Shown here: positions 6,798 through 46,648 of the stretch, piece after piece
Layout: the number at the start of each line of letters is the position of its first letter
How positions within the stretch are numbered: position 1 is the stretch's first letter
Assembly (NCBI RefSeq): GCF_030068615.1
Contig: NZ_JASJOC010000002.1
Location: 1-64,000, forward strand
Direction of reading: 5' to 3'
Source: Halostagnicola sp. A-GB9-2
GTDB lineage: Archaea; Halobacteriota; Halobacteria; Halobacteriales; Natrialbaceae
Length of the DNA: 64,000 bases
Notes under the pieces: model-generated
What the model was told of the DNA's origin: nothing
The model's input: only the letters and a program-made list of their open reading frames with translations
Database searches by the model: none
Position numbers and translations under genes: made by a program

Positions 6798-8269
6798 GCG
6801 ACGATCGTCCCGGAAGTACTGACGACGAGGGCAGTCGACCCGAACAATCGCGATACGATCAGGCTCGCTACGTTCGAAACGGTCGATACGAGCCCTTGCT
6901 CATCGAGAAGGACAGCACTCGCGTCGAAATCGGCGACGACTCGCCACTTCCCGAGGAGTTGACGCGAGACGACCTCGAGTTACCCGCTCCATCCGAACCC
7001 GAACTGGTTCGTCACTACACGCGACTCTCCCAGATGATATACGGCATCGACAGCGGCCCGTACCCGTTGGGATCGTGTACGATGAAGTACAATCCGAAAT
7101 TCACGGAGGATGTCGCGGCCCTGCCAAGCGGTCTGGTCCATCCGGATCGCTCCGACGAGTCGATTCAGGGGACCCTCGAGGTGCTCGCCCGACTGCAGGA
7201 GTACCTCGGTCGAATTGGGGGTATGGACGCCGTTACCCTGCAACCGCCCGCGGGCGCTGCGGGCGAGTTTGTCGGCATCCGCGTCGCGACGGCCTACCAC
7301 GAACACAACGGCGAGGGGCATCGCGACGAAGTGATCGTTCCCGAGAGCGCTCACGGGACCAACTTCGCAACCGCCGCACTTGGCGGGTACGACGTCGTTT
7401 CCCTACCTAGTGACGAAAAGGGACGAGTGAACATAGAGGCGCTCGAGGCCGCACTTTCGGAGAATACCGCGGCGTTGATGCTGACGAACCCGAACACGCT
7501 GGGGCTGTTCGAACGCGACATCTCTGAGATCGCCGAGATGGTCCACGACGCCGGTGGCCTGCTCTACTACGACGGGGCGAATCTGAACGCCCTCCTCGGC
7601 CGCGCCCGCCCCGGCGATATGGGGTTCGACGTGATGCATTATAACGTCCACAAGACGTTCGCAACACCCCACGGCGGCGGCGGACCAGGTGCTGGACCCG
7701 TCGGCGTCGTCGAGGAGCTCGCCCCCTACCTTCCTGAACCCCGCGTTCGCGAATCCGGCGGCGGCTACGAACTGTTCTCTCCCGAGCACTCCATCGGACA
7801 CGTTCACGGCTATCAGGGTAACTGGCTCGTCCTCCTCAAGGCCTTCGCCTACATCGCCAGACTCGGCGACGAGGGACTCACCGACTCGAGCGCGAAGGCA
7901 GTCCTCAACGCGAACTACCTCGCGAGTCAGATCGAGTACGACGTTCCGTACGGCCCCTTCCACCACGAGTTCGTCGCCAGCGCGGGTGATCAGGATGCCG
8001 CGGACGTCGCCAAACGGATGCTCGACTACGGCGTCCACCCGCCGACGACGAAGTGGCCCGAGATCGTCCCGGAGGCGCTCATGACCGAACCGACCGAAAT
8101 CGAGAGCAAGGAAACGCTCGACCAACTGGCCGCCGGCTTCAACGCCGTGGCCAAAGAGGACGACGAGGCGCTCGAGGCCGCACCCGAGCGAACGACCGCG
8201 CGTCGAATCGACCAGACCAGCGCGGCTCGGAACCCGCGGCTGTCCTGGCACGCGCTCGAAGAGAAGTAA
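6794..8269 (+). CDS. gcvPB: Glycine dehydrogenase (decarboxylating) subunit 2
   Basis: A 491-residue subunit that carries the PLP-binding half of the P-protein. The cofactor lysine is about Lys287 in [16 protein letters not shown], typical of this family. Other family blocks are [24 protein letters not shown], and the [13 protein letters not shown] region. The true start is ATG 6794, overlapping the gcvPA stop (ATGA); the frame is open further upstream, but that part is a shadow inside gcvPA. The N-terminal 30 residues are polar and acidic, a haloarchaeal extension. The C-terminus has an unusual 40-residue tail rich in E and A. Confidence 0.94.
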
Positions 8270-22177: not shown

Positions 22178-23059
22178 TCACGCTCTCAATGTGAGGGGAG
22201 CGAGCGTGGCGAACAGAGCCTCCTCCGTTCTCACCACGCCGCTTCCCTGGTTCGGAACCGTATTGAGCCAGAGGTCGAACCCCGGATCGCCGTTGGGTTC
22301 GACGTCTGCGTCGTCCTCCGCATCGAGCCGTTTAACACCGTCTTTCTGAACGGCGTCGGCGTCGATGCCGAGGATTGCCGGCAGCCCTCTTTCGGGCGCA
22401 CCGAACGCGACGGTGAGACCGTCTCGTTCGATCCGTCCGGCCAGCGTCTCGAGTTTCCCCACGGTGAGCGGTTCACCGAACCGGGAAGCTGCGATTCGGA
22501 CGCCAGCGTCCTCACGGCTGAGGGCCGCCGAAAGGTCCGTTTCCTCAATCGATAGCCCCTGCGTGGGCTTGTCGACGATTTTCGCACGGACCGGTCGTCG
22601 CGAAGAGATCCTGACTGTCACGCGCTCTCCCTGCTCGAGTGCCATATCCGACGGCACGTTGAGAGAGATCGGGTGTTGCAGACCGCAATTGACCCGGACG
22701 CGTTGATCAGGTCCGACCTCGGTCACGATTCCTTGTCTTTTCGACCCCGAATCGTCGGATTCGGAGCCGGTCTGTGACGTGGCGCGGAGCGGCGGTAAGA
22801 CACCCACGTACTCCAGTTCGTCCCGTTTGCCCCAGATCTCCTTTCGAAGATGCGGAGGCGTCGTGGCGTACCGCAGTACGGTGCTTACGAATCCGCCGTC
22901 GAGATCGCCCCGTTCGCCGTCCCGATCTGGGTAGACGATTAGGCGATCGGCCCGATAGATCGTCGCCGCGCGGGCAACGTATCCGAGTTTGCGAGTAGCC
23001 TCGCGTTTGTCCTCGGCTTCTCGAGCGAGTGACGACGGCACGAGTACGCTTGTGGTCAT
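22178..23059 (-). CDS. SPOUT-fold RNA methyltransferase (SPOUT1/C9orf114-like)
   Basis: A 293-residue protein at the head of the ribosomal cluster. The N-terminus MTTSVLVPSSLAREAEDKRE, then AATIYRADRLIVYPDRDGER and FVSTVLRYATTPPHLRK, match the family annotated as putative RNA uridine-N3 methyltransferase. An inserted OB-like region (residues 95-160) follows, then the C-terminal SPOUT segment with FGAPERGLPAILG and DLWLNTVPNQGSGVVRTEEA, the knotted cofactor site. ATG 23059 is preferred over an upstream ATG because the extra 44 residues would overlap the TATA box. The target RNA is unknown; its place suggests rRNA. Confidence 0.85.
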   Translation of the reverse strand: MTTSVLVPSSLAREAEDKREATRKLGYVARAATIYRADRLIVYPDRDGERGDLDGGFVSTVLRYATTPPHLRKEIWGKRDELEYVGVLPPLRATSQTGSESDDSGSKRQGIVTEVGPDQRVRVNCGLQHPISLNVPSDMALEQGERVTVRISSRRPVRAKIVDKPTQGLSIEETDLSAALSREDAGVRIAASRFGEPLTVGKLETLAGRIERDGLTVAFGAPERGLPAILGIDADAVQKDGVKRLDAEDDADVEPNGDPGFDLWLNTVPNQGSGVVRTEEALFATLAPLTLRA

Positions 23060-23365: not shown

Positions 23366-23436
23366 GCGTTGGTAGTGTAGTGGTATCACGTGACCTTGCC
23401 ATGGTCACAACCTGGGTTCAAATCCCAGCCAACGCA
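23366..23436 (+). tRNA. tRNA-Gly (GCC)
   Basis: A 71-nt tRNA without encoded CCA. Acceptor GCGTTGG pairs with CCAACGC, discriminator A at 23436. The anticodon stem TGACC/GGTCA encloses TTGCCAT with anticodon GCC. The T-arm is CTGGG TTCAAAT CCCAG. Two copies of its 3' end follow downstream. Confidence 0.96.
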
Positions 23437-23545
23437 TCTTTCTCCGAACAATTACGTGAGGAGAAAGATCTCTCTGGAATTTGAATCAGAGAGTGAAACG
23501 AACGAAGTGAGTGGAACGACCGTGGTTCAAATCCCAGCCAACGCA
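23437..23545 (+). repeat. tRNA-Gly tail array, unit 1
   Basis: This 109-base unit ends with a 22-base exact copy of the tRNA-Gly 3' end (23524-23545, T-loop through discriminator). It begins, on the base after the tRNA, with a 9-bp perfect hairpin: TCTTTCTCC (23437-23445) with GGAGAAAGA (23460-23468). Between them, CTGGAATTTGAATC (23474-23487) matches the inverted T-arm at 12 of 14 positions and is itself flanked by CTCTCT/AGAGAG. Confidence 0.85.
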
Positions 23546-23688
23546 TTTTCCAAACTCACTTTCCACGAGCATTGCGTAGCAATTCGAGTATTCGAGTTTG
23601 GAAAAATCCATCTGGATTTGAATTATACTGAGGTTCTGCGAGCGTCGCGAGCAGGTTCTCAGGAGTAGTTCAAATCCCAGTCAACGCT
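23546..23688 (+). repeat. tRNA-Gly tail array, unit 2
   Basis: A second unit of about 142 bases ends with a 20-base copy of the tRNA-Gly 3' end (23668-23687) with one mismatch. It starts with a 12-bp perfect hairpin: TTTTCCAAACTC (23546-23557) with GAGTTTGGAAAA (23594-23605). CTGGATTTGAAT (23612-23623) is an inverted T-arm box. A second hairpin, CTGAG...CTCAG with inner CTGC/GCAG, lies at about 23628-23662. After it, 23689-23771 holds a weaker TCGC...GCGA hairpin and GGATTGAA but no clear third copy. Confidence 0.8.
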
Positions 23689-42256: not shown

Positions 42257-42325
42257 GTGCGATGCGTCGTGAGGACTAGGACGGATCGACAGGTTCTTAC
42301 TCGAATCGCGAAAACGATAGCCTGC

Positions 42326-42410
42326 GCGCGGGTAGCCAAGCTAGGCCAACGGCGCAGCGCTTAGGACGCTGTCCCGTAGGGGTCCGCCGGTTCGAATCCG
42401 GTCCCGCGCA
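42326..42410 (+). tRNA. tRNA-Leu (UAG)
   Basis: An 85-nt class II tRNA. Acceptor GCGCGGG pairs with CCCGCGC, discriminator A at 42410. The anticodon stem CAGCG/CGCTG encloses CTTAGGA with anticodon TAG. A long variable arm (TCCCGTAGGGGT) marks it as Leu type. The T-arm is GCCGG TTCGAAT CCGGT. Two copies of the 3' end follow. Confidence 0.94.
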
Positions 42411-42552
42411 CTGAACGTAGAACTGTGAGCGGAGCGAACAGTTCGAAGTGAAGGAACAGGAGCGGATTCGAATTCGAGGAGTCGCAGCCCGGGAAGCGAC
42501 CGGAGGGAGTAACCCGGAACGTCTCCACATAGTTCGAATCCGGTCCCGCGCA
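42411..42552 (+). repeat. tRNA-Leu tail array, unit 1
   Basis: A 142-base unit ending with a 21-base exact copy of the tRNA-Leu 3' end (42532-42552). Hairpin GAACTGT (42420-42426) with ACAGTTC (42438-42444) has loop GAGCGGAGCGA. CGGATTCGAA at 42463-42472 matches the inverted T-arm. A second hairpin is GTCGC/GCGAC around 42482-42501. Confidence 0.85.
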
Positions 42553-42658
42553 TTCCTGTCGCTCGCAAACTCGCGAGCGACGGGAATCGCCAATACGGAT
42601 TCGCGGCCCAGAGGACGAGCGGAGCGAAGTCCTCGCGGTTCGAATCCGGTCCCGCGCA
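42553..42658 (+). repeat. tRNA-Leu tail array, unit 2
   Basis: A 106-base unit ending with a 23-base exact copy of the tRNA-Leu 3' end (42636-42658). It starts with a 14-bp hairpin on the base after the preceding copy: TTCCTGTCGCTCGC (42553-42566) with GCGAGCGACGGGAA (42573-42586), one G-T pair. CGGATTCG at 42596-42603 is an inverted T-arm box. A second hairpin AGGAC/GTCCT encloses GAGCGGAGCGAA. The remaining 42659-42721 shows nothing further. Confidence 0.85.
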
Positions 42659-42721
42659 CCGTTCACTGAGGATAATATCTGCAACAGAGAGAAGTCTCGT
42701 TCCGGGAAGTAGCCGGTTTAA

Positions 42722-44527
42722 TTAGACGGTACCGTCGCGTGGTTTTTGAAGGATCGTTGCCCATTCACACTCGATCACTCCTCCTTCGTGTTTTCGTCCC
42801 TGGAATAGGTCGCGGTTCGTAATACTGTCCCATGCTGAACCCACTAAACGGAAGCCTTCTTCCTCCGAGAAGTCTCCACCGTGTCTCTCGAACTTACCGA
42901 GATTTTGTGCAATATCGGCAATATATTTATGACTATGAATGAGTTGTTCTCCAATTGTGTTTTCTCCGATTACGAAAAAGTAGTACGCTCCTGGTTTTAG
43001 ATGCTCGTAGACTCTGGCCAAATTCTTCAACATCCCATCCGCGAAAAATTTCCATGTTACGTATGCTTTGCGTTCTGCTTCATTGTGATCGAGGTTGTGA
43101 ATAGTCTTAATGTCTGCATCTAGATTCGGGAGTCGAGTCGCTTCGAACGCTTCGTCAGTACCGAGCCAGATGTCTCGAAGAGTTGTCGGTAGGTTTCTTT
43201 CTACGGTGCTCATTGAGACGGAGTTGGTCCCAATGATAGACTGGCGCAGTTCCTTTGCTTCGAACTTTTCATCCTCTTCGAGGAAGTCGTAGATCCAGAA
43301 CAGTCGCAATTTCGAACCCCGATAGTAGTTCATTGCGTTGATATACGGTGGCGAAGTAATTGCGATGTCTACCTCTTCCCGGTATTCTGGGATATCGAAG
43401 GTTCTTGCATCTCCGAGACGAATGTCGACCGCCGCATTATGGGCCGCGTTTTGCTCGAAATCGTTCTCAGTATCTGAGGAATCAAATCTCTGTAGGGTCC
43501 GCTGGACGGTCCCACCACTGTAATTGGTTGCGTAGATCTCGTTCCACAATTCAACGAGTTTTCCCCTCGACTCTGCGATCTCCTCCTCGTGGGTTTCGAT
43601 CACATCGGGCGGATGTTCGTCGTTTTCTATGCGACGGCGCATTTTCTTCGATTTATATGCCTTCGAGATACCGGGGTCTGCGTTCGAGACGGTAAAGACG
43701 GTATTGGCAATCATCAAAGTGAGCCAGCGATTGAGTCGGACTTTGATTTTTTTATTGTCGATACCCAGGTCTCCCAGAGCTTCGGTTTCACTCTCTGTAA
43801 GATCCTCGAGAAAGTCAAAATCGCTTTCTTTGAAATCGGCGAGAGCCTTTCTGATGCGAGAGAGGTCACGTACTACTTCCGGCTCGAACCAATGCTCTTT
43901 CTTAGTCCTATCAAGAAACTCCGCATCGTATTTCTCATATAGCTTCGCTTCCGTTTCATGGAGTAAACTGATATATTCCGCTTGTGCCTGTTTCAGCGCA
44001 TTCGGAGGGAGAGGAGAGGTAGAAACCTCAGATACCAGTCTGGATAGTGGATTGATTTCGATACCCAGGTAGTCTCGACCGGTGATTTTTGCTTCCAGTC
44101 CTGTCGTTCCGCTCCCCGAGAACGGGTCGAGAACGATCGGTCTGTCGCCCGATTCGTTCCGTTTGGAGGTGAATTGTCTAATAATGTAACTCGGGATTTG
44201 TGGTATGAATATGGCCGGGTGTTTGTGGATATCGTGAGTGAGGTATGTTGTGTTTGGAATCGTCCTCCCGTCGTCCAGATCGTTAGCTAGGGCACGAAAA
44301 TCCATTTCTGGATACTCGTCAGGTTCTCCTTCGAATGCATAGTTGACACCCTCGCCTTTCGGGACTTCTCCGAGCTGATATCCAGGTTCGTCCGGAACGT
44401 GACTCATACCCGGATTGTCTTCAAAACGAAAATCCGGAAAAACGCGGTTTCCCTTCCGTTTCATTTCCACGTTTCCATGTTGGGTATAGATGGATGGGAT
44501 TTCTGAACCCGAGGCTTCCTCATTCAT
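42722..44527 (-). CDS. DNA methyltransferase (amino-methyltransferase with TSPPY motif)
   Basis: A 601-residue methyltransferase. The cofactor motif DPFSGSGTT is at residues 134-142, with GIEINPLS after it, and the catalytic TSPPY is at 391-395, so the order is I then IV. TSPPY suggests N4-cytosine (or N6-adenine) methylation. A helical, charged segment of about 190 residues lies between and may recognise DNA. It is 54 bases downstream of the large gene at 44582-46648, in the same direction, so the two probably form a restriction-modification pair. The gene is more AT-rich than its surroundings, a sign of transfer. Confidence 0.8.
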   Translation of the reverse strand: MNEEASGSEIPSIYTQHGNVEMKRKGNRVFPDFRFEDNPGMSHVPDEPGYQLGEVPKGEGVNYAFEGEPDEYPEMDFRALANDLDDGRTIPNTTYLTHDIHKHPAIFIPQIPSYIIRQFTSKRNESGDRPIVLDPFSGSGTTGLEAKITGRDYLGIEINPLSRLVSEVSTSPLPPNALKQAQAEYISLLHETEAKLYEKYDAEFLDRTKKEHWFEPEVVRDLSRIRKALADFKESDFDFLEDLTESETEALGDLGIDNKKIKVRLNRWLTLMIANTVFTVSNADPGISKAYKSKKMRRRIENDEHPPDVIETHEEEIAESRGKLVELWNEIYATNYSGGTVQRTLQRFDSSDTENDFEQNAAHNAAVDIRLGDARTFDIPEYREEVDIAITSPPYINAMNYYRGSKLRLFWIYDFLEEDEKFEAKELRQSIIGTNSVSMSTVERNLPTTLRDIWLGTDEAFEATRLPNLDADIKTIHNLDHNEAERKAYVTWKFFADGMLKNLARVYEHLKPGAYYFFVIGENTIGEQLIHSHKYIADIAQNLGKFERHGGDFSEEEGFRLVGSAWDSITNRDLFQGRKHEGGVIECEWATILQKPRDGTV

Positions 44528-44581: not shown

Positions 44582-46648
44582 TTAGGATGATAGAACGGCC
44601 GGTTGTTCAGCCTCCCTTTTGGCATCCTCGGGCAGGTCCCGCATAAAACGACCCATGCGGTGACCGACTCGGGCTGGGACCGCAAATTTATCACCTCTCT
44701 TTTCGAAGAGCCCGCCTTTGTTTTTGGAGGTTCCGGAAGCCATGTTCTTGAGAAGCGATGTCGGTGTTGCAATGTCCAACAAATCGCCGATCTCGGATTT
44801 CGTTGGCGCGTTATCCCAGTCGATCGGGTCATCTTCAGATGCAGGGATATTCGTTCCACTCTGCTCATATTCCGTTTTATTTCGAACGGCCCGGACGATG
44901 TTCTGTTTCTTGGTCGTATCGTCCTCAACGTCGAACAGGTACGTTTCTAGTGTATGCCGAACATCCCCGAGAGAGGCCTCAACGATATCGTCTTTCTCGT
45001 ACTCCGGTTCAGGTGGTGTGGCTTCAGGAAAACGACGTAAGAAGAGGGGTCGGGAAATCGAGTCGTAAACGAGCGTCTCGATCGTAACGTCTTGCAGATA
45101 ATTGAGCGGATTCCCTCCGAACACCCACTCGACATACTGGTTGTCGCGTTTTTCATCGTACATCTCGGAAACGTCTCGAGCAAACGCTAATAACTCTCTA
45201 TCGGCCTTTCGACGTTTTCCGGTGCGGCACAACTCTCGAAACTCGACAAGACGGTCGGTCAGTTGGTCATCCTCGAGTATGAGGTCCGCGATCTCCATCG
45301 CGTTGTTTCGGTTCTGTGTGGAAATTTCGAAGACCTTGTTTTCCCGCTCTGCGATTGAGAACCCGAGCCAAAGGTCGTCGGCGTCGTTCTCGCTGATGAT
45401 TCCTCGAAGCGAGCGTGGCGAATCGAACGTCTCTACCGAACCACTTTCACCGGTGGCAATCCGCGAGCCAGTGTATATTGTATTCAGATACACATCGCCG
45501 TAGAGGAACGACATGTGGAACTGGATCGTTTCATCGCTATTTGGTGATACCGGTACCTCAAACTCGAGTTGTAGGTTCTGCGAATCTAGACTGATATTAC
45601 GCAGGTCTTTTGTGAGATTTGTTGGCAGGTCCTCTTCGAATTCTTCGATGAGTCTCCGACTGGTTCCTTGTTGTGGATCTTCCTCCCAGCGTGCAGGTGT
45701 TCTTTTTTCGTTGAAAAGGATCCCGACGTGGAAGTGAATCTCCTCGACTCCAACCTCGTTTAATAATTCGGTTAACGCATACGAATCCGGTGAGATGTCG
45801 TATTCCTGTCCAATATTATCTGGGATTGTGACGATATTGTTTGACTTTGTTAGCTCACGGACCAACGCTCGCGGCTTTCGCATTAGCGACGGTCTCGCAG
45901 TCGTTCCACCGCTGACAACACTCGTCCTGTGCTCTCCGAAAACGAGCGTCCCTTCTTCCTCAAAAAAGAGCGTGGCGTCTGCGTTCGCCTGCTGGTTGTT
46001 TTCGGCAAGGTCGAAGGTGATGGAATCCAGGTCGCTCAATCGATCCTCCTCATCAGCATCGAGCGTCTCGCGGGTATAGTTGAGGGATTTCCAACACAGT
46101 TCTGGTTCCAGGAGATACTGTAAGAGATGACCGAGGTTTCGGTCCACATCGAGTCGGTGTGAATCCTCTTCGGCGGCTATCACCTTCTCGAAGAACTTGC
46201 CCTTGACCGCGTCAAAGGACCGGGTAAAGTACTCTGCCACGGTGAACAGTCCGCCATAGACTGCGGGCAGGGAATCCTCTGGATTGGCCTCCGTTAGCTC
46301 CCGTGCTCGTTGGACGCCACCGACGCTCTGATTAGTCAATTGGTCACTACTCTCGTCACCGTCGCCGTTCGATTGTTTCTCGTGTTCTTGAAACGTCGCT
46401 AACGGGAGTTTTCGAACGGTCCTGTTTACCGTCCCTTTGAGTATAACTTCAGCTTCGTTCAACTCTTCATCGTTATGAATAGATATAATTTTCCTGTCGA
46501 AGTAATTCATATCTACTACGTTATCGACGGCATGGATAAATATAGGTACAACTCGTTCGCGATCCTGTGTCTTTTGCAACAGCAAAACGAGTTTATCCAC
46601 TGTCTCCTCTGCCCTGTCGCTTGTGCGGTCGTCTGCTTGGTTGCTCAC
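44582..46648 (-). CDS. Probable restriction endonuclease partner of the methyltransferase
   Basis: A 688-residue protein of no family I can name with certainty. GKFFEKVIA (150-158), DLDSITFD (206-213) and GEHRTSVVSGGTTARPSL (238-255) are spaced like a PD-(D/E)xK core, though the usual ExK reads EHR. The last stretch reminds me of ApaLI-type restriction enzymes; this is recall, not a search. Residues 300-560 are beta-rich and 560-688 acidic and helical. The start is GTG 46648. The adjacent methyltransferase and low GC support a mobile restriction-modification module. Confidence 0.6.
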   Translation of the reverse strand: MSNQADDRTSDRAEETVDKLVLLLQKTQDRERVVPIFIHAVDNVVDMNYFDRKIISIHNDEELNEAEVILKGTVNRTVRKLPLATFQEHEKQSNGDGDESSDQLTNQSVGGVQRARELTEANPEDSLPAVYGGLFTVAEYFTRSFDAVKGKFFEKVIAAEEDSHRLDVDRNLGHLLQYLLEPELCWKSLNYTRETLDADEEDRLSDLDSITFDLAENNQQANADATLFFEEEGTLVFGEHRTSVVSGGTTARPSLMRKPRALVRELTKSNNIVTIPDNIGQEYDISPDSYALTELLNEVGVEEIHFHVGILFNEKRTPARWEEDPQQGTSRRLIEEFEEDLPTNLTKDLRNISLDSQNLQLEFEVPVSPNSDETIQFHMSFLYGDVYLNTIYTGSRIATGESGSVETFDSPRSLRGIISENDADDLWLGFSIAERENKVFEISTQNRNNAMEIADLILEDDQLTDRLVEFRELCRTGKRRKADRELLAFARDVSEMYDEKRDNQYVEWVFGGNPLNYLQDVTIETLVYDSISRPLFLRRFPEATPPEPEYEKDDIVEASLGDVRHTLETYLFDVEDDTTKKQNIVRAVRNKTEYEQSGTNIPASEDDPIDWDNAPTKSEIGDLLDIATPTSLLKNMASGTSKNKGGLFEKRGDKFAVPARVGHRMGRFMRDLPEDAKREAEQPAVLSS

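Follow-up and report, generated by a model that had tools for sequence, protein, structure and literature searches.

Why the 3′ end of a tRNA gene should recur, exactly and more than once, directly downstream of the gene itself is the question raised by the tRNA-Leu(UAG) locus of Halostagnicola sp. A-GB9-2, located within a 64,000-nucleotide stretch (contig NZ_JASJOC010000002.1, positions 1 to 64,000; hereafter the window). The repeats themselves, described in a sequence-only reading of the locus as exact copies at 42532-42552 (21 nt) and 42636-42658 (23 nt), are present as reported, as are the two spacer hairpins noted there: one of 7 bp (GAACTGT at 42420-42426, ACAGTTC at 42438-42444, loop GAGCGGAGCGA) and a longer one with 15-nt arms that are 93% complementary (42552-42566 and 42573-42587). 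The occurrence of GAGCGGAGCGA in two hairpin loops and the inverted T-arm boxes CGGATTCGAA (42463-42472) and CGGATTCG (42596-42603) were likewise recovered, the first box extending to a 14-nt arm (42459-42472) with 93% complementarity to the tRNA-Leu 3′ part and to both copies. The locus resolves into a tRNA followed by two units, each built of a first hairpin (HP1), an inverted copy of the tRNA 3′ end, a second hairpin (HP2) and a direct copy:

42326-42410, + strand: tRNA-Leu(UAG), the array anchor (ARAGORN, which gives 42326-42411, and sequence)
42390-42410, + strand: G53-to-discriminator segment of tRNA-Leu(UAG)
42411-42458, + strand: unit 1 HP1, the GAACTGT/ACAGTTC hairpin with loop GAGCGGAGCGA; DNA fold z -1.9
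42459-42472, + strand: unit 1 inverted copy of the tRNA 3′ end (GGAGCGGATTCGAA), 93% complementary over 14 nt
42473-42531, + strand: unit 1 HP2, class GTCGCAGC...GGAACGTC; DNA fold of 42459-42552, z -2.7
42532-42552, + strand: direct copy 1 of the tRNA 3′ end, 21/21 (sequence)
42553-42595, + strand: unit 2 HP1 (TTCCTGTCGCTCGC/GCGAGCGACGGGAA); DNA fold z -5.6
42596-42603, + strand: unit 2 inverted T-arm copy (CGGATTCG), short (sequence)
42604-42637, + strand: unit 2 HP2, GAGGAC/GTCCTC with loop GAGCGGAGCGAA (sequence)
42638-42658, + strand: direct copy 2 of the tRNA 3′ end, 21/21, identity running left to 42636

The tRNA-end repeats lie 121 and 85 nt apart with no gene between them, and unit 1 of a congener (genome G001) carries the same inverted box CGGATTCG and HP2 as unit 2 of the window. 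Elsewhere in the genome, the Leu 22-mer is matched with up to three mismatches only within tRNA-Leu(GAG) (C12:155413-155434, two mismatches) and once on contig C1 (three mismatches), the reversed-pattern control giving 0. The same plan had been claimed for tRNA-Gly(GCC), where it is indeed found:

23366-23436, + strand: tRNA-Gly(GCC), anchor of the second window array
23437-23475, + strand: unit 1 HP1 (sequence, DNA fold)
23476-23486, + strand: unit 1 inverted T-arm copy (GGAATTTGAAT), 9/11
23487-23524, + strand: unit 1 HP2, class CAGAGAGTGAAACG...GACCGTG
23525-23545, + strand: direct copy 1 of the tRNA 3′ end, 21/21
23546-23612, + strand: unit 2 HP1 (TTTTCCAAACTC/GAGTTTGGAAAA); DNA fold z -5.6
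23613-23623, + strand: unit 2 inverted T-arm copy (TGGATTTGAAT)
23624-23667, + strand: unit 2 HP2, class GAGGTTCTGC...GCAGGTTCTC, older and common to congeners; DNA fold of 23613-23688, z -3.5
23668-23688, + strand: direct copy 2 of the tRNA 3′ end, 19/21

Of the two HP2-containing hairpins in each array, one (42596-42658 for Leu, 23476-23545 for Gly) folds as DNA no better than shuffled sequence, so folding energy alone is not uniformly convincing.

The scale of the phenomenon was assessed first within single genomes, using the flanks of 42 tRNA matches located in the Halostagnicola genome (G000) and asking for the last 21 nt of each tRNA (G53 to discriminator) at 17/21 or better, 20-300 nt downstream. 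A tRNA's own 3′ end recurs in this way, about 100 nt away, at 19 of 41 loci, compared with 14 of 1562 comparisons (0.9%) when ends were swapped between loci and 0 of 40 in an upstream control at 15/21 or better; three other haloarchaea gave 13/42, 20/40 and 16/30, with swapped controls of 9/1642, 14/1476 and 28/808. Across genomes, a strict signature was applied, namely the palindrome enclosing HP2 (GGATTYGAA-N30-60-TTCRAATCC), whose counts are lower bounds because only exact T-arm palindromes are caught. Its 10 matches in the Halostagnicola genome all lie, by coordinate, just downstream of tRNAs (reversed control none), and 17 of 18 in genome G011 stand behind a listed tRNA, the remaining one lying beyond a probable integrated island. 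Within class Halobacteria the signature is present in 270 of 292 genomes and 73 of 77 genera, with up to 19 matches per genome, the reversed pattern being absent from every one of the 292; among other genomes of the phylum it was found in 1 of 101 (G393), a match that is not convincing as a unit, its interior being without the HP2 hairpin motifs. The plan is thus found at many further tRNA genes of the genome, in congeners and across the class, as expected of the recurrent system, rather than chance, that had been proposed from the two window loci; the suggested comparison with relatives places the copies well beyond one strain, and two local scars are excluded. It appears that this entire class of archaea has a previously undescribed repeat system associated with its tRNA genes. 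The Halostagnicola genome also contains a tandem triplication of tRNA-Asp (G000:C33:348604, 349407 and 350210; L047), in which the three genes are identical, lie 803 bp from one to the next and are each followed by hairpin units of their own; genomes G001 and G002 likewise have two tRNA-Asp copies close together.

The architecture is constant across these loci: one to five tandem units run away from the tRNA in the order HP1, inverted copy, HP2, direct copy, with HP1 beginning within a few bases of the tRNA end and recurring after the direct copy if a further unit follows. The spacers (median 100 nt) hold hairpins only. The inverted copy is mostly reduced to the T-arm, is complete once (tRNA-Thr(CGU) of genome G002) and in other cases reaches into tRNA-specific acceptor sequence; the idea of the inverted box as a universal T-loop guide was dropped on account of this extension. 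The edges of the direct copies are sharp, identity among 92 well-preserved copies being at chance two bases to the left of G53 and again beyond the discriminator, apart from a mild common T-rich start on the right, and the 3′ edge coincides with the mature tRNA end. The two hairpins behave as separate modules. In other genomes, the closest relatives of HP1 follow the same tRNA (37 to 2, both exceptions being valine isoacceptors), whereas for HP2, which falls into several recurring classes, 30 of 54 closest relatives follow a different tRNA; HP1 is accordingly tied to the locus, and HP2 travels.

Distinctive loops are common to both modules. Exceptionally stable DNA mini-hairpins are an established concept (PMC10527192), and C-GNA-G triloops are enriched in HP2 (84/160 vs 13 shuffled) and in HP1 (54/168 vs 10). 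The motif CGARCGNAGYGAG, also enriched in both, lies in the tRNA sense in 46 cases to 1; in the whole Halostagnicola genome it occurs 58 times, mostly away from tRNAs, against 6 for the reversed control, and its sites in the window include 6864-6876 and 23499-23511. GNA-loop hairpins such as GCGAAGC are exceptionally stable DNA mini-hairpins.

A dynamic component is evident as well, since units turn over between species. Comparison of haloarchaeal tRNA-Leu loci places units behind most Leu(UAG) genes and few Leu(GAG) genes of Natrialbaceae, so unit presence depends on the tRNA; congeners differ in whether units follow the Phe, Thr(UGU), Met, His and Tyr genes. Genomes G000 and G003 carry the shared older HP2 type of tRNA-Gly(GCC) in a distal position and G001 in a distal, decayed form, with other units standing next to the tRNA in these three; in G002 it is proximal. 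Arrays of at least two units are polar: where first and last copies differ in their match to the tRNA, the first is the closer in 23 of 31 (p 0.011), and substitutions per site in the acceptor part rise from 0.006 in proximal copies to 0.120 in last copies, the T part being better kept. This polarity could instead reflect homogenisation of the copies nearest the tRNA, or a recent tandem duplication such as that at L061.

The explanation that we tentatively place first, with less than even confidence, is that the arrays are gene-less DNA cassettes of haloarchaea, class-wide in distribution and added at the tRNA 3′ end by way of a folded-hairpin site, resembling an integron array without being one. 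A more specific and rather improbable version is that a dedicated, class-wide site-specific recombination system inserts the hairpin cassettes, in the form of folded single-stranded DNA, at the 3′ ends of many tRNA genes and with every insertion renews the end of the tRNA, in an integron-like but integron-independent manner. Under the broader cassette explanation, a single strand comprising the inverted copy, HP2 and the direct copy could fold to give a double-stranded replica of the tRNA 3′ end, the proposed recognition site of a putative tyrosine recombinase or similar enzyme; the tRNA T-arm would serve as the insertion point, and the array would operate much as integron cassette arrays do. 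By an exchange close to G53/T54, within the T-loop, the new unit would be placed directly behind the tRNA body, the inserted unit providing the new 3′ end of the tRNA while the old one would become the downstream copy and then decay. A possible benefit is that the copies could act as putative decoy sites, sparing tRNA genes from integrating elements. Counting towards gene-less cassettes are the recurrence of each tRNA's own end, the spread through the class, the sharp edges, the polarity and the distal position of the older HP2 behind other units at Gly(GCC), together with HP1/HP2 modularity, the mismatches in strict stems, the sense-oriented loop motif, the GNA triloops and an ectopic segment in Halostagnicola sp. 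A56; from these, we infer that the units are DNA-level insertions. Against the same cassettes, the units carry no genes, neither within-species gain nor a circular intermediate was seen, and of nine Phage_integrase-family genes in the genome none lies on the window's contig, with no recombinase linked to the arrays. The sharing of HP2 between tRNAs is also left unexplained by cassettes, because a whole foreign cassette would replace the acceptor strand of the tRNA.

Rearrangements within the arrays have been considered in the light of an unlikely reading that dispenses with a dedicated enzyme, in which replication stalling or repair at tRNA genes generates fold-back and template-switch copies of the tRNA 3′ end that are later amplified by unequal crossing-over or deleted. 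Such events would accord with the alternation of direct and inverted copies around hairpins, and with exact tandem duplications (for example, L061), an A-B-C-B-C array behind tRNA-Ser of genome G011 and a microhomology deletion at tRNA-Ile of genome G002. They sit poorly with the same edges at many tRNAs, with restriction to one class of archaea, and with HP2 belonging to a few conserved classes that are common to tRNAs and families and not derived from tRNA.

Two arrays have been identified away from their tRNA. In Halostagnicola sp. A56, a two-unit tRNA-Gly-type array lies between protein-coding genes with no tRNA nearby (L450:8600-8840; G003:C7:26600-26840), circularly permuted and opened inside HP1; it may be an assembly error. 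In genome G011, a tRNA-Arg(UCG)-type unit is found about 55 kb from its tRNA (L451:1827-1960, G011:C1:1221330-1221460; and L343), behind a 13-nt sequence that repeats the tRNA end; a probable integrated island would have displaced the array. As this probable island carries its own 13-nt tRNA-end repeat and separates the array from its tRNA, arrays look resident and distinct from elements, which bears on the proposal that the units are scars of ordinary integrative elements (proviruses, plasmids), since deleted. This proposal is disfavoured and appears very improbable, although archaeal integrases use tRNA 3′ ends (PMC8371274) and partial tRNAs are commonly ascribed to integrative elements (PMC3119063): the short length and plan are uniform at many tRNAs, and the HP2 pattern has no match in viral contigs. 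A looser palindrome scan of the viral contigs returned nothing unit-like among the matches listed; a phage origin, for which a weak Sodalis phage match (E 0.8) was the sole candidate, was set aside as chance. Plasmids yielded one true unit, behind a degenerate tRNA-Glu-like sequence. On a plasmid of Halomicrobium urmianum (L329:1477-1535), the tRNA-Leu 3′ part directly precedes a site-specific integrase gene, forming a canonical attP, and no unit is present; the probable island of G011 lacks the unit as well.

The relationship to known systems is one of partial likeness. Integron arrays (attI/attC) are similarly polar and built at one insertion site, with inverted-repeat sites around a variable hairpin, an exchange beside a G/TT step (here proposed) and distal sites that may decay; the folded inverted-repeat site is present here in that inverted and direct copies enclose HP2, a likeness that is structural only. 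The haloarchaeal arrays differ in their tRNA-gene anchor, the absence of cassette genes and of IntI in cis (the window's contig has no Phage_integrase-family gene that could act as an integron integrase beside the array) and their box, GTTCRAA, the integron box consensus being GTTRRRY. Archaeal integrons have so far been reported from metagenome-assembled genomes of nine phyla (PMC9668308). Attachment-site duplications left by integrases share the direct repeat of the tRNA 3′ end and its start in the T-loop, but here the repeats are about 100 nt rather than kilobases apart, include inverted copies and hairpins and affect many tRNAs at once, and the window's Leu repeats enclose no integrase or element genes as an attL/attR pair would. 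Casposons and Cas1 integration also leave an insertion flanked by duplicated target, tRNA-Leu-like target sites being reported in Methanosarcina mazei, where the duplication is 14 bp and comes with terminal inverted repeats (PMC10359463); the duplication here is 21 bp, the unit has no evident cas1, and such terminal inverted repeats were not seen, the start of HP1 and the end of HP2 not being evident inverted repeats of each other on an unsystematic look. Nor are these CRISPR arrays, the spacers being structured and common to loci rather than unique and unstructured.

The closest published observation is a passing mention of 'partial tRNAs' directly adjoining full copies in a paper on Haloferax gibbonsii LR2-5, whose main text gives no architecture, inverted copies, hairpins or class-wide pattern (PMC7921747). 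The arrays are undescribed in the openly available full texts searched, which leaves priority uncertain. The arrays would account for many 'partial tRNAs' that are at present classed as prophage scars, and genetically tractable haloarchaea offer a place to test tRNA-end rewriting, shielding from integrating elements, or processing; even under the rival explanations, fast, patterned turnover occurs beside some of the most conserved genes.

The last of these roles underlies the strongest rival, a possible though doubtful one, in which the units form a structured RNA trailer whose hairpins and inverted/direct-copy helix terminate, protect or help process the pre-tRNA. In form, the helix is similar to an acceptor/T-arm minihelix that stops at the discriminator, plausibly a predicted RNase Z substrate, and the coincidence of the copy's 3′ edge with the mature tRNA end, the retention of the T part as the acceptor part decays and the strand specificity of the loop motif are all compatible with a transcript. 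The RNA fold of the Leu locus is strong (z -6.9), but the predicted structure pairs the tRNA 5′ acceptor strand with a downstream copy, which would disturb the tRNA. No terminator-like site (G+C-rich hairpin then T run) was found in 42300-42800, and the covariance models of Rfam 15 gave no match up to E 1 in 42400-42800. At 7 of 7 loci where a co-directional gene lies within 150 nt, units are missing, which suits a trailer but is partly trivial; as proof of operon avoidance, this was rejected, the downstream-gene heuristic being too weak. A trailer is harder to reconcile with the absence of units at orthologous tRNAs of close congeners, which shows them to be dispensable.

Whether the hairpins evolve as DNA or RNA has been approached through mismatches in their stems, for which free stem alignment proved noisy and a strict version was used instead; an arm count of 59:18 in favour of G.T over A.C was discarded because a bulged T had in part produced it through misalignment. 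Strict stems contain G.T and A.C mismatches at similarly low frequency (HP1 1:3, HP2 0:4, whole hairpin 4:3), while tRNA stems of the same genomes give 51:1. The strict stems, with no G.U tolerance, therefore stand against a trailer and would favour DNA and gene-less cassettes, on the few mismatches left after filtering. Pulling towards RNA, compensatory double changes number 8 in HP1 and 11 in HP2, and comparison of orthologs gives G.T over A.C at 7:1 in HP2, with 2:3 in HP1; the HP2 ratio and the small number of mismatches both weigh against cassettes.

A further structure has been observed downstream of tRNA-Leu(GAG), where a conserved hairpin ends in CCCACGCA, the tRNA's own acceptor end (L055, L063, L078, L106, L121, L159; in the Halostagnicola genome, L045), and where several genera also have a remnant of tRNA-Leu that is interrupted by hairpins ahead of its T-arm; the structure may represent a distinct conserved RNA or belong to the array system as a variant. 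Directly 3′ of the window's Leu array, a 601-aa N6/N4 DNA methylase-family protein is encoded at 42722-44527, followed by a 688-aa open reading frame without a Pfam match at 44582-46648, possibly representing a defence or modification island. On the minus strand at 22611-22710, the window also carries a match to the Rfam L4-Archaeoglobi ribosomal protein leader (RF03135, 68 bits), here in a haloarchaeon.
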